Below, one piece after another: positions 36,929-44,593 of a DNA stretch of 64,000 nucleotides (the stretch's first letter is position 1; each line of letters opens with the position of its first letter). This DNA comes from Promethearchaeota archaeon (GTDB taxonomy: Archaea; Asgardarchaeota; Lokiarchaeia; Sigyniarchaeales; SOKP01). A program made the translations under genes and the position numbers. The DNA lies in the NCBI GenBank assembly GCA_029838195.1, contig JALGVJ010000010.1:1-64000 (forward strand), written 5' to 3'. Below the pieces are notes generated by a model that was not told where the DNA came from, did not search any database, and was given only the letters and a program-made list of their open reading frames with translations.

Positions 36929-38101
36929 CTATGCTTTAGGGATTTCTGGTAATTTTCTTTTTTTAGGAGTGCCTACTCTTTCTTTCTCTTTCTCATTCTT
37001 GAGCACGTTTTCAATAATCTCAATAATCTCGCCTTTTTTTGCTTTGGTAGGCAATTCAATCTTCCTTTCTTTTGCGAAAAGCTTGAGCTCTTTTACTGTC
37101 ATGGGACTAAGATCAAGAGAATTCTTATTGTCGTTTTTAGAATCTCCATTATCCGATGAAGTGGTATCTTTATCACTTACTTTTTCCCTAGTAATTATTT
37201 CGACCGCTTCTACGATGCCTTTATCATCATTAAAATACACGCGAAATAAATGATCATCCAATTCTACCATGTTTTTTGGAAGTGTTTTTAAAGGTTCCCA
37301 TTCCGTTTCTTCCACGTCTTTACCGAACACGTTTACTTTTTTGAAAACAGGAGCATAAAGCTGGTTTCCTAAAATTAAATTTTGTCGCTTATGGTTTTGA
37401 GGAATCTCCGATTTAAGAATCCGGTCTAAAAGCCGTTTTTTATCTTCTTCAAAGAGACCCCCAAAATTCTTACTTTCCTTTCCCGTCGGATAAGGGATGT
37501 ACGTGCGGGTAGGAGGAGGGGTAGTGCGAGCAGGAGAAGGTTTCTTACGCTCCATTGGAGTAATGTTTTTTTTAGAAATTGATATATCTTGCAAGGCTGA
37601 CACATCGATCTTTTGACCCGTCTTCTTCTCTATTTCTTGAAGTGCTGGCGAAAAATATGGCTCAGATTCAGCCTTACCACCGATCTCTTTTGATTCAACG
37701 ACTTTTCCTAAAGCCTCTCCCCGTTCCTTTTCGATGTTGCGAACATATCTCATATCTGCCAGTCGTTCTGTTACTTCCATCGACTTGAGACCAAATGCCC
37801 TTAAAAATTCTTCAACTTCATCTCCTTGGTCCACACTAACGATTTTACACCTATGAAACGCAGCCTCTTTTACTAACTCCTCTTGTAGAGCACTCGCAAT
37901 CCTTGAACTGATGAATCTTTTTCTTACGGGAGATTTTGCTCCTTTCCAAATATAAATTCTTCTGAGTTCTTCCTTCACGATTATAAAAACTTCTTCAGGA
38001 TGTAATATATTTTCTAATTCTTCTTCCGATACGGCTAATCGCACTCTCTCGCCTGTTTCTGAAATGCCAAATACCATGAAATAATCGTACGAGTCGGACA
38101 T
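36929..38101 (-). CDS. Gelsolin-like domain protein with C-terminal SAP-like domain
   Basis: VFIIVKEELRRIYIWKGAKSPVRKRFISSRIASALQEELVKEAAFHRCKIVSVDQGDEVEEFLRAFG; C-terminal MTVKELKLFAKERKIELPTKAKKGEIIEII. Confidence 0.7.
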   Translation of the reverse strand: MSDSYDYFMVFGISETGERVRLAVSEEELENILHPEEVFIIVKEELRRIYIWKGAKSPVRKRFISSRIASALQEELVKEAAFHRCKIVSVDQGDEVEEFLRAFGLKSMEVTERLADMRYVRNIEKERGEALGKVVESKEIGGKAESEPYFSPALQEIEKKTGQKIDVSALQDISISKKNITPMERKKPSPARTTPPPTRTYIPYPTGKESKNFGGLFEEDKKRLLDRILKSEIPQNHKRQNLILGNQLYAPVFKKVNVFGKDVEETEWEPLKTLPKNMVELDDHLFRVYFNDDKGIVEAVEIITREKVSDKDTTSSDNGDSKNDNKNSLDLSPMTVKELKLFAKERKIELPTKAKKGEIIEIIENVLKNEKEKERVGTPKKRKLPEIPKA

Positions 38102-40023: not shown

Positions 40024-41529
40024 CTATTGAATGTTCAATTTTTTTTTCCATTGTTCTATATTAGAGATGATGAGTTCAATATCTTCTTCATTTAGTTGTG
40101 TTTCTGATCCTTTAAATTGATTGATGATCCGACCGATCTGGTGGAGCGTGACAGAGAATCCTTTTTCTTCCAAAATTTTATCAGCAATTCCTTGTAATTG
40201 TCTACTAAAATCATTACTTTTTAAGTTTTTTAGATTCTTAACTAAATTATTAAACATCATCCCGATAGATTCTGGTTCTTTTTTTACTTCTGTTTTAGGT
40301 ACTTCTTTTTCAACTAAAACTAAATCATGGGAACTGACACTGGGTTTCAAGGGAGGCGGCGGTTCTTCCTTTTTTAGAGCCTCTAACTTTTTAACCGTAG
40401 GACGAGGCGCTGAAAATTTGATGGAGGCTGGTTTTACTTTAGCTTCTGGTCTCTCTTTTTTTGGGGGAATATGTGGTCTTTCAATCTCTTCTTTTTGAAG
40501 GGTTGGTACTTCCTCCTTTTTTAGCGGCACTTTTTTACTCGTTAATTTTCTCAGGTAATCCGAGAGCAGGAGTGTTATTGGTTCATTCAATCCAATTATA
40601 TCTTTTATTGATTTATCTAATAATGAAGACATCGTGGAAAGTATTCCTTGTTTCAAGGTTTTGATGTTTTTCTCGTCCGTTTCCTCATGTGATTTCAGAA
40701 GAGAACTGATGCGATTCAATTTTAATTCGAAATCATTCAATAGATTTAACAAGATTAATTTCAAATCTGTTTGATATTGTACGGATTGCACGAGTAACTG
40801 TTCAAACGTGCCTTTATTCCGTTCGTTCTCTACTGCAATCTTGATTTGCTGCGCATTATTTACCAAGATTTCATTAAATTTAATTTTTAATTGTTGTTCC
40901 ACTTCATTCAAGAAATCTTCTTTATTTTTTTTTAAGTCATGATGATTCATAAGGGTACTAATGATAGATCTCAAATCAGTAATCGTTTGATCTATGGTTT
41001 TACTTGATGGTTTAAGATGTCCCGTGATGGTTTTTACTAATTGTTCTTGTTGATTTTTCATTTGAGTATTAAGTTGATTTAGTTTTACCACCAAATCATC
41101 CACGTCTTTTTTTTGAACAATACTGAGAGATTCATAATCCTTAAAAATTTCGGTGAAAGGTTGGTGGAGAGTCTCATTTTTTTCAGCTTCATGGCTATCT
41201 ATGATTTTTTGGAAAGATTTATCAAAATGTTCCATTATTCGGGAATGAATCGAGGAAAGGTTTGAAGCAATGTTCTTATAATATTTATTGATTAACTCGA
41301 GAGGAGGATTAGGCATGAACACTTCGGGGCGAGAATGGTCGTCTCCTTTAATAGGAACTAGAAGATTATTATCCATTAATTCTTCAATAACAGAGTTGAA
41401 TTGTTCTTCTGGTAAATCCGGGAGATATTTTTTTAAATCTCCTTGTTTTAATGAAGGTAATCCAATAATCCGAGAGTATAAGTTTATCCCCTCTTTTGAA
41501 ATTCGGGAATTTTTTAAAAATTCTTCCAT
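40024..41529 (-). CDS. Winged-helix-like N-terminus plus coiled-coil protein
   Basis: N-terminal helical region RISKEGINLYSRIIGLPSLKQGDLKKYLPDLPEEQFNSVIEELMDNNLL; long coiled coil; Pro/Lys-rich linker. Confidence 0.55.
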   Translation of the reverse strand: MEEFLKNSRISKEGINLYSRIIGLPSLKQGDLKKYLPDLPEEQFNSVIEELMDNNLLVPIKGDDHSRPEVFMPNPPLELINKYYKNIASNLSSIHSRIMEHFDKSFQKIIDSHEAEKNETLHQPFTEIFKDYESLSIVQKKDVDDLVVKLNQLNTQMKNQQEQLVKTITGHLKPSSKTIDQTITDLRSIISTLMNHHDLKKNKEDFLNEVEQQLKIKFNEILVNNAQQIKIAVENERNKGTFEQLLVQSVQYQTDLKLILLNLLNDFELKLNRISSLLKSHEETDEKNIKTLKQGILSTMSSLLDKSIKDIIGLNEPITLLLSDYLRKLTSKKVPLKKEEVPTLQKEEIERPHIPPKKERPEAKVKPASIKFSAPRPTVKKLEALKKEEPPPPLKPSVSSHDLVLVEKEVPKTEVKKEPESIGMMFNNLVKNLKNLKSNDFSRQLQGIADKILEEKGFSVTLHQIGRIINQFKGSETQLNEEDIELIISNIEQWKKKLNIQ

Positions 41530-41668: not shown

Positions 41669-43063
41669 ATGCGTGGTCATTTAGAAGACGTGTTTTTTTA
41701 TTTGGATTTATCTAAAGAATTATTGAAGAAAAAGGATATCAAAAAAGCAATTAAATTCTATATTGAAGAAAAGAATAAAACAAGTAATCTAGGGCTATAT
41801 GGTATTTTTTTGTTCCAAAAGGATGGTAATCCTGTATTTATAACTAATAAAAGAGATCCAGAAGTACTGTTGAATGCCATTGAAGAAAATTGGAAAAATA
41901 GATTCACGGAACAGAGTTATTTTGAAAATGGCTTATTCTATATCTTTTCTTATATCGCAGAAACCATTCGAGAGCAATCCAAGTTTAATCGTGTTATTAT
42001 AATCACGGACACACCCAGCGATTTAAATGAGGAATACCAAGAAGCCTTGTTTAATTTAGTGGCTAAAATACGATTATTCCCGACCTTCGTCGATATTATT
42101 CGTGTCTCTGAAAAAAATCAAAGATTGTTCAAAGATGACGTGAAATTGAACATGCTAGCAAGGGATACAAAAGGAGGCATCTTTTATGTTCATGATAAAA
42201 ACGAATTTTTTGCCACTATGAAAAAATTAGTAAAGAACAAACAACTCATCTCAACTTTCGCCAGTGAACCTGATAAAATCGAAATCACAAAAGAGGATTA
42301 TGTTTTCTATAGTAAATTAGCTAAAAAATTGAGTCTTATAGATCCTCAAGAAGAAGCGGATTGCTTTTTCTGTCATGATACTGTTTGTCCTATTTGCGAA
42401 AACGTAGAAGATATTCCTTTAAAATGCCCTGATTGCAAAACAACTTTTCATAATTGCTGTATCATTAATCATGCCCTTCATCATAATATTGGCATTCCAA
42501 ATATCTTTCGTTGCCCGAATCCTAATTGTGACGTGCTCTTGCAGGTCAGGGCTGAAGAATTTATGGAACTTTCAGATACAACAAAGACCCCAACCTCCAT
42601 CGATGAATATCTTGAAGGCGAACAAGGTGAAAACATGATTCCTCAAGATGAATCACGGCCTTCTCTTCACTTCGATAACTCCTTAAAAGTTGAAAAATGG
42701 GTGAAGAGTGAAGAAGAAGAAACTAACACTCTTAGTATCGAAAATAGCCATGAAGAAACCTTAAAAGCTGATGTGATACAAGAAAGACATATCAGAATAG
42801 GTGGATTTTTTGGACCCGTTTTCAAGGTGAAAAAAATTGGAGATAAAATCATTTATGAACGCGCAAGTCAAACTAATAAGAATGAGTCAAAAGCCATGAT
42901 GAGAGACATCTCATCTCCAAGATCGACTTATTGGAGTCCTTCGAGAGATAAAACACGTGAAAACCGAACTAAAGTCGTGATATGTTCCGTCTGTGGAACT
43001 CAAGTCAAAATGAAAAATGAAGGCCAAAAATTTTGCCCTACTTGTGGTGAAAAACTTTTCTAA
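41669..43063 (+). CDS. vWA-like + RING-like zinc module + C-terminal zinc ribbon protein (paralogue 1)
   Basis: vWA-like region with NRVIIITDTPSDLNEEY and LARDTKGGIFYVHDKNEFF; CFFCHDTVCPICENVEDIPLKCPDCKTTFHNCCIINHALHHNIGIPNIFRCPNPNC; C-terminal CSVCGTQVKMKNEGQKFCPTCGEKLF. Confidence 0.7.
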   Translation: MRGHLEDVFFYLDLSKELLKKKDIKKAIKFYIEEKNKTSNLGLYGIFLFQKDGNPVFITNKRDPEVLLNAIEENWKNRFTEQSYFENGLFYIFSYIAETIREQSKFNRVIIITDTPSDLNEEYQEALFNLVAKIRLFPTFVDIIRVSEKNQRLFKDDVKLNMLARDTKGGIFYVHDKNEFFATMKKLVKNKQLISTFASEPDKIEITKEDYVFYSKLAKKLSLIDPQEEADCFFCHDTVCPICENVEDIPLKCPDCKTTFHNCCIINHALHHNIGIPNIFRCPNPNCDVLLQVRAEEFMELSDTTKTPTSIDEYLEGEQGENMIPQDESRPSLHFDNSLKVEKWVKSEEEETNTLSIENSHEETLKADVIQERHIRIGGFFGPVFKVKKIGDKIIYERASQTNKNESKAMMRDISSPRSTYWSPSRDKTRENRTKVVICSVCGTQVKMKNEGQKFCPTCGEKLF

Positions 43064-43282
43064 ATTTAAATTTTTATTGAGTATAACATTGGAAACAACC
43101 ATGCTTCAAATCTTATTTATTGTATTTTTTTCTAGAGCTTCAATTTAACTTTCTCTCTTAATTTCTTTTCCTTATAATGTATTATTCGTAAAAAAAATTT
43201 TTTGATGGCTTAAAAATAAATAGCTAATTTCCCTTATTCATATTATAGATTTTAGAATATTTCGCATCTTAAAGAAACCATC

Positions 43283-44593
43283 ATGGTTGCGTCGATAAGA
43301 AAAGAAGAGATCATCTTTTTCATTAATTTAATCACGGATTATCTTCCGAAGAAAACAATATTAAAAAGCTTGCGAAATTTTATACGAGAAAAAAAAAAAT
43401 ATAGTTTAAGTAATCCCAGTTCTTTTGGCTTAGTATTATTCCAGCAAGATAGCGATCCGATTGCCATTTATGATGAACCAAATGAAGTAAAAATCCTCGA
43501 ACTTCTTGATCATGCTTGGGAATCTCGAGAAATGGAAAAAAATTCGTTTGAAAACGGATTATTCGAAATTCTCTCTTATGTTTTCAGAAAAGGAAGAGAA
43601 ATTAAAAATGTTTACCGAGTTCTCGTGATCTCTGATGCTGCAAGCACGCGCTCAGATGAGTATTACAATGCAGCGTATGAATTAATTATTAAAGCTAAAT
43701 ATTTTGATACCATTATAGATGTTATTCGTGTAGGAGACACCACTTTTTATGAAGATGAAATTCGCTTAAAAGTAATAACATCGGAATCTAATGGCGGATT
43801 GTTTTTCTGTGATGCCAAGCAATTTGATATAGTGCTTAGTTCCTTAATCCAAAGGAAATCGGAATTCCCTATTATCCAACCAACGAGAGAGGATCTAGAA
43901 AAAATGATGGAAGATAAAACATTTTACGAGAAACTCGCGGTAGATCTCATTTCTTTAGATATAGATGATGAAAGAATCTGTAGTATTTGTCAAAAAGAAA
44001 TCTGTGCCATCTGTGAATTAAATTCGGATGATTTAAGTAAGTGTTTTAATTGCGGAGCTAAATTCCATTCTTGCTGTATTACCGAATATGCCATTGCAAA
44101 TAATATTGGACTAAAGCATATCTTTAGATGCCCTAATTGTGAAACCCTTTTAAAAATTGATGAAGAATTCGCTAAAATACTATATACAGAAAAATTTGAA
44201 GAAGATATGGAAGAAAAAATTGAAAATAAAGTAGTCGAGAAAGAAATAATTGAAAATGAATTACAAGTTAATGAGAGTGGACAAGTGAAAGAAAATATAA
44301 TTAAATCCGAACTTGAAGAGGAAAAACCTCCCGAAACTCCGCAAAAAGTTGAAGAGGAAGTGATTGAGGAAAAAGAAATTACCGTTGGAGGGTATTTTGG
44401 ACCAAGAGTTAAAGTTAAAACAAAAAAGCAATTAAAAATTAAAGAGTTAGAAGAGCCCCTCCAAGAAGAAAATATTCCTGTTAGAAAGTCCATAACGTCT
44501 TTAAAGCCTCCTAGCAAGGTTAAAATTTGCCCAATTTGTGGCGCTAATATTTTTAACTCTTTTAAATGTAATAATTGTGGATATCGTTTCTAA
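43283..44593 (+). CDS. vWA-like + RING-like zinc module + C-terminal zinc ribbon protein (paralogue 2)
   Basis: Colinear with 41669-43063: YRVLVISDAASTRSDEY; CSICQKEICAICELNSDDLSKCFNCGAKFHSCCITEYAIANNIGLKHIFRCPNC; CPICGANIFNSFKCNNCGYRF. Confidence 0.7.
   Translation: MVASIRKEEIIFFINLITDYLPKKTILKSLRNFIREKKKYSLSNPSSFGLVLFQQDSDPIAIYDEPNEVKILELLDHAWESREMEKNSFENGLFEILSYVFRKGREIKNVYRVLVISDAASTRSDEYYNAAYELIIKAKYFDTIIDVIRVGDTTFYEDEIRLKVITSESNGGLFFCDAKQFDIVLSSLIQRKSEFPIIQPTREDLEKMMEDKTFYEKLAVDLISLDIDDERICSICQKEICAICELNSDDLSKCFNCGAKFHSCCITEYAIANNIGLKHIFRCPNCETLLKIDEEFAKILYTEKFEEDMEEKIENKVVEKEIIENELQVNESGQVKENIIKSELEEEKPPETPQKVEEEVIEEKEITVGGYFGPRVKVKTKKQLKIKELEEPLQEENIPVRKSITSLKPPSKVKICPICGANIFNSFKCNNCGYRF

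Follow-up and report, generated by a model that had tools for sequence, protein, structure and literature searches.

Tandem vWA-zinc proteins of a Lokiarchaeal genome are built like the TFIIH subunits p44 and p34

Results

A conserved tandem gene pair

The window analysed here is a 64,000-nucleotide stretch of contig JALGVJ010000010.1 from a Promethearchaeota archaeon of the class Lokiarchaeia. It contains two neighbouring open reading frames, encoding the proteins referred to below as P0001 and P0002, at the positions and with the sequence given by the original prediction (Table 1). Because homologues of the pair are carried by 49 of 58 related genomes, the two reading frames represent real genes. 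They are also tandem paralogues, as had been proposed: the proteins align with ~33% identity, and the same-strand tandem arrangement is kept in 40 of the 49 named loci with a spacing of 108-475 bp, most of the exceptions being cut by contig ends. In the phylogenetic tree, P0001 and P0002 each form a separate orthologue group across the family. Synteny extends across Lokiarchaeota, and the named relatives carrying the pair are all Candidatus Lokiarchaeota, apart from one contig labelled Bathyarchaeota. The member on that contig (L175:7324-8337) may reflect mis-binning or transfer. Scans of P0001 and P0002 against Pfam and NCBIfam gave no matches above the cut-offs.

Table 1. Coordinates of the gene pair, its domains and the conserved neighbouring genes (window positions).
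Feature	Coordinates	Strand	Evidence
Gene 1 (P0001, 464 aa): vWA, C4HC3 zinc module, GGFFG motif, zinc ribbon	41669..43063	+	
Gene 1 vWA domain, aa 6-190, degenerate MIDAS	41684..42238	+	AF2 beta-alpha order; Foldseek; column counts
Gene 1 C4HC3 (PHD/variant RING) zinc module, aa 230-292	42356..42544	+	Invariant ligands; PHD/FANCL/APC11 profile matches
Gene 1 GGFFG motif region, aa 371-400	42779..42868	+	G378 G379 F381 G382 invariant
Gene 1 C-terminal zinc ribbon, aa 436-464	42974..43060	+	
Gene 2 (P0002, 436 aa): tandem paralogue, architecture as gene 1	43283..44593	+	
Gene 2 vWA domain, aa 7-190	43301..43852	+	AF2 model
Gene 2 C4HC3 zinc module, aa 231-292	43973..44158	+	Invariant columns
Gene 2 GGYFG motif region, aa 362-380	44366..44422	+	G369 G370 F372 G373 invariant
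Gene 2 C-terminal zinc ribbon, aa 413-436	44519..44590	+	
Divergent gene: N-terminal TrmB-like winged helix, long coiled coil	40024..41529	-	44/49 loci; alignment
Gelsolin-domain and SAP/Rho_N-like gene, conserved upstream block	36929..38101	-	30/49 loci

Domain anatomy

AlphaFold2 models were obtained for both proteins, that of P0001 from an 85-row alignment, with mean pLDDT values of 78.6 (P0001) and 79.8 (P0002). In P0001 the values were mostly above 85 in the vWA and zinc regions, and the linkers were disordered. Residues 1-190 of the models, with pLDDT again mostly above 85, follow the classical beta-alpha order of strands and helices of a vWA domain. Membership in the vWA superfamily is further indicated by Foldseek matches to vWA domains and by the Pfam VWA model, which recognises 19 of 85 family members (best 2.6e-6). 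An intact MIDAS (D-x-S-x-S..T..D) is typical of vWA domains but not required of them, and the proteins of the window type, branch A1, do not have one. Column counts place the A1 metal site at D13, [TS]15, [DE]17, S83 and D114, so that D13 and the invariant D114 are retained and D-x-S-x-S is replaced by D-x-[TS]-x-[DE].

The zinc module that follows contains eight ligands (C232, C235, C253, C256, H261, C264, C282 and C287), which stand in C4HC3 order and show little or no variation among 44 sequences. Their arrangement, CxxC / CxxC / HxxC / CxxC, is that of PHD and variant RING fingers and matches the eight-ligand cross-brace pattern of RING and PHD domains, a likeness that concerns the pattern itself and not E3 activity. 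The zinc-module part of the family profile gave weak PDB matches to PHD fingers, FANCL and APC11, and one relative (L031) passes the Pfam PHD model. Most family members have an additional CPxC pair in the module. The last ligand pair of P0001 is spaced as C-x4-C (CPNPNC, window 42512-42529); nearly all relatives have C-x2-C at this position. Further downstream, the GGFFG motif is found in 86 of 89 family ORFs within a tail that is mostly disordered, and a terminal CxxC...CxxC ribbon is present in ~35 of 44 sequences. The anatomy foreseen from sequence, an N-terminal vWA region with a degenerate metal site, a Cys/His module and a terminal zinc ribbon, was confirmed.

Likeness to p44, p34 and Rpn10

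When the models were compared with the whole PDB using Foldseek, chains of the TFIIH subunits p44/Ssl1 and p34/Tfb4 occupied ranks 1-31 for P0001 (best 2.5e-9) and ranks 1-21 for P0002 (best 1.4e-9). The closest overall fold of both proteins is therefore p44/Ssl1 or its partner p34. Full-length superpositions had rmsd values of 13-22 A, reflecting a match of domains and their order without a match of their orientation. With the vWA domain alone, p44 led only for P0001, at TM 0.73-0.75 (0.75 for chain 5ivw_0) versus 0.67 for Rpn10 and 0.65 for integrin I domains. The vWA domain of P0002 was not p44-specific (p44 0.62-0.70, Rpn10 0.66-0.72), vWF A domains being equally close. In profile searches of the PDB, the full-length window family found weak matches to Rpn10 (1.3e-4) and p44 (0.02). 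A vWA-only A1 profile found Tfb4/p34 first, in a weak and partial match of 114 columns (1.5e-4), followed by Rpn10 (1.2e-3), with no others below 0.01.

We also looked in the window pair for features particular to the TFIIH subunits. The Pfam Ssl1 model (PF04056) did not reach its gathering score on either protein. The C4C4 RING of p44 (PF07975), considered as support for a p44-type RING, was over its cut-off in 0 of 56 genomes, and both window proteins have a zinc ribbon at the C-terminus. P0001 has no N-terminal XPB-binding extension, as its vWA domain starts at residue 6. The residues with which human p44 contacts XPD, D75 and L174/T175/D178 (PMC6422496), are not kept in A1. The D-x-x-P-N-R segment has been lost from A1, which has TDTPSDL in the loop; in a second branch described below, A2, the segment is kept. 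The Pfam Tfb4 model (PF03850) matched no A1 protein and was over its cut-off for one A2 protein. The D-x-S-x-x-M...D-x-x-P-N-R signature of p44 was set aside as proof of identity, since it occurs also in bacterial BatA/BatB-type vWA domains.

The p44/Ssl1 lead of the original prediction therefore stands in part. The Foldseek ranks of both proteins support a p44/p34-like build for the window pair, and p44 is the best PDB sequence match of branch A2, although the Ssl1 model itself fails on the pair. That the pair is an archaeal p44 is not supported, given that the other p44 features tested were not found and that the gene context points to GTPases and actin, not to XPD or XPB.

A canonical branch with affinity to p44 and Rpn10

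Searches with PF04056 revealed further family members elsewhere in the genomes, which make up branch A2. The window's own genome has two copies (G000 C1:172589-173074 and C35:29904-30218). A2 proteins are ~400 aa long and have an intact MIDAS (DTSRSM-x-R-x-D-x-x-P-N-R). They share the first zinc module with A1, ending in FRCPxC, and continue into a C-terminal RING-like module that in some of them passes Pfam zf-RING_2. Domains resembling this C-terminal module are present in many proteins of other Asgard classes (L180, L183, L184 and others). An A2 profile retrieved A1 proteins at about 1e-22 to 1e-32, with four matches in the window genome, and A1 formed one clade in the tree (support 99). 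The window pair is a diverged branch of a family whose canonical branch is A2.

Against the PDB, the A2 profile found human p44 first (2.2e-19), followed by Rpn10 (1e-18) and, at a wide distance, bacterial BatB (4.7e-11). A profile of the A2 vWA domain alone (A9) gave the same order. For comparison, 13 vWA domains from other Asgard classes were combined into a control profile. It retrieved collagen VI, ITIH, BatB and integrins, and both p44 and Rpn10 were absent from its best 60 matches. Of 57 Lokiarchaeia genomes, 55 have a match above the curated cut-off of PF04056, as against 0 of 139 genomes of other Asgard classes, with the caveat that the generic VWA_2 model outscores Ssl1 for single A2 proteins. 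From the control profile and this distribution it follows that the affinity to p44 and Rpn10 belongs to the family and not to archaeal vWA domains generally. Hardly any members of the family are found outside Lokiarchaeia. One A2 branch comes near the Pfam Tfb4 model as well. When p44 and Rpn10 served as outgroup, the tree gave no order of nearness, because the long branches meet. A related vWA-zinc protein of 608 aa (L038:4857-6683) has a C-terminal PCI domain above the Pfam cut-off, a combination that recalls subunits of the proteasome lid, CSN and eIF3.

These searches bear on whether the family descends from p44 at all. It might instead be a Lokiarchaeal lineage that has in common with p44 only a cytosolic type of vWA domain, to which zinc modules were added independently. 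Restriction to one class and the near tie of p44 and Rpn10 would fit such an origin, as would the higher scores of VWA_2 and the zinc modules of A2, which have no significant similarity to those of p44 (3.6 bits). The failure of the control profile to retrieve either p44 or Rpn10 argues in the other direction, and so does the vWA-Zn-Zn domain order common to A2 and p44. We regard independent assembly as possible though doubtful.

A closer tie to TFIIH appears much less probable. If the proteins were archaeal counterparts of p44/p34, they would share a common ancestor with both subunits and would still regulate an XPD-type helicase in repair or transcription. The Foldseek ranks, the A2 match to p44, the appearance of Ssl1 over cut-off in Lokiarchaeia only and the A2 branch near Tfb4 are consistent with this, and XPD-type DEAD_2 helicases are indeed encoded in these genomes. 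Co-occurrence with XPD, suggested earlier as a check, nevertheless does not discriminate, because DEAD_2 helicases are found in 112 of 119 Asgard genomes, whereas the other Asgard classes examined do not have the family. No XPD or XPB genes were seen among the annotated neighbours of family loci. Together with the missing PF07975 RING and N-terminal extension and the lost XPD-contact residues of A1, these results make a surviving helicase regulator very unlikely.

A role in the ubiquitin system, with the C4HC3 module acting as a RING-type E3 or the vWA domain as an Rpn10-like receptor or adaptor, is somewhat easier to entertain. Rpn10 is among the closest vWA matches, some A2 RINGs pass zf-RING_2, E2 enzymes are present in 39 of 39 relatives, and Ssl1 has itself been proposed to be an E3 (PMC4094531). 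However, the ligand spacing CxxC-x4-HxxC-x17-C is PHD-like, in keeping with the Pfam PHD match of one member, A1 is without the C-terminal RING of A2, and the annotated neighbours include no ubiquitin genes. On balance we consider this role unlikely.

Gene neighbourhood

Both the adjacent divergent coiled-coil gene and a downstream HEAT-like gene had been suggested to belong to the same module. The former is kept at most loci (Table 1); the latter occurs in only 3 of 49 and was dropped. Two members of the divergent-gene family match Pfam TrmB weakly (0.002). Alignment columns 359-500, ~140 residues retained in the aligned relatives, are missing from the window protein; the segment may be a TrmB-type regulatory domain. 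The upstream block conserved in Lokiarchaeota also contains genes for a CDP-alcohol phosphatidyltransferase and a LURP-one/scramblase-like zinc-ribbon protein. A profile of the gelsolin-domain protein in this block matched Asgard gelsolins in the PDB at 4.1e-6, and the protein matches Pfam Rho_N at 8e-5. This product may be an actin regulator with a C-terminal, Rho_N/SAP-like tail that would bind nucleic acid.

In four genomes from two other genera, an A1 gene adjoins, in divergent orientation, a pair of genes for a Ras-family GTPase and an actin (L045:2902-6228, L046:787-4197, L058:10244-13828 and L206:2422-5784). Branch A2b adjoins a Gtr1/RagA-like GTPase with an N-terminal extension at five loci (L077:8915-11602, L088, L092, L095 and L096), and another A2 branch adjoins a Ras-like GTPase in two loci. 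The gene context is suggestive of small GTPases, actin and membranes and not of DNA repair. As Lokiarchaea have many small GTPases, such adjacency is a pointer and not a proof.

Discussion

The reading we favour, with a probability of roughly one half, is that P0001 and P0002 are a pair of non-catalytic scaffold (adaptor) proteins of p44/p34 build, probably serving GTPase and cytoskeleton signalling rather than XPD. The vWA domain, its metal site decayed, would provide a docking platform for protein partners. The C4HC3 module, terminal ribbon and tail motifs would probably join the paralogues to each other and to those partners, by analogy with TFIIH, in which p44 and p34 are held together by the p34 vWA domain, the p44 RING and interlocking zinc fingers (PMC6422496, PMC4094531). 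Small-GTPase, actin or membrane signalling is a more plausible client than XPD. The scaffold reading draws on the Foldseek ranks, the A2 and control profiles, the PF04056 distribution, tandem pairing and the actin, GTPase and gelsolin neighbours. Weighing against it are the high rmsd of the superpositions, a P0002 vWA domain that is not p44-specific and the lead of VWA_2 over Ssl1 in A2; neighbouring genes also vary between subfamilies, and their adjacency may be partly chance.

In a bolder variant, the family would be a proto-TFIIH scaffold with an ancestor in common with the eukaryotic pair. A2 would supply its p44-like and the A1 pair its p34-like component, and together they would form a heteromeric regulator whose target may be an XPD-type helicase. 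We give this variant very little weight. Because the other Asgard classes examined have no member of the family, these data do not demonstrate a simple vertical inheritance by eukaryotes. Loss elsewhere, transfer from eukaryotes or convergence may each account for the distribution.

XPB- and XPD-like helicases exist in archaea. A RAD25/XPB-like family has been reported in some Asgard genomes (PMC9258230). Our search of the literature on Asgard TFIIH, p44, Ssl1, vWA and RING proteins found no description of p44-, Ssl1- or vWA-RING-like proteins, nor any report of an archaeal p44 or p34. With a vWA domain closest to p44 and Rpn10 and models that match p44/p34 first, the family makes the origin of the TFIIH scaffold, and of Rpn10, testable. 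Its recurrent actin and small-GTPase neighbourhood would point to an unrecognised adaptor family in the Lokiarchaeal cytoskeleton.

Among known systems, p44/Ssl1 (PF04056) has the same succession of a vWA domain and zinc modules and is the top structural match of both window proteins as well as the top sequence match of the canonical branch. The window pair differs from it in being without the XPB-binding extension and the C4C4 RING, in its C4HC3 module and terminal ribbon and, as A1 proteins, in the degenerate MIDAS and lost XPD contacts. p34/Tfb4 (PF03850) shares a degenerate-MIDAS vWA domain followed by a zinc module and is the best sequence match of the A1 vWA domain, but its Pfam model does not extend to A1 proteins and the zinc modules are unlike. 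Rpn10/S5a of the 26S proteasome is also a cytosolic vWA protein, the second closest by sequence for A2 and A1 alike; where it has a UIM tail, the window pair has zinc modules. PHD and variant RING fingers (FANCL, Nse1, APC11, MTF2) share the C4HC3 order and an aromatic residue two positions before the last cysteine pair, whereas in the window pair this module is fused behind a vWA domain.
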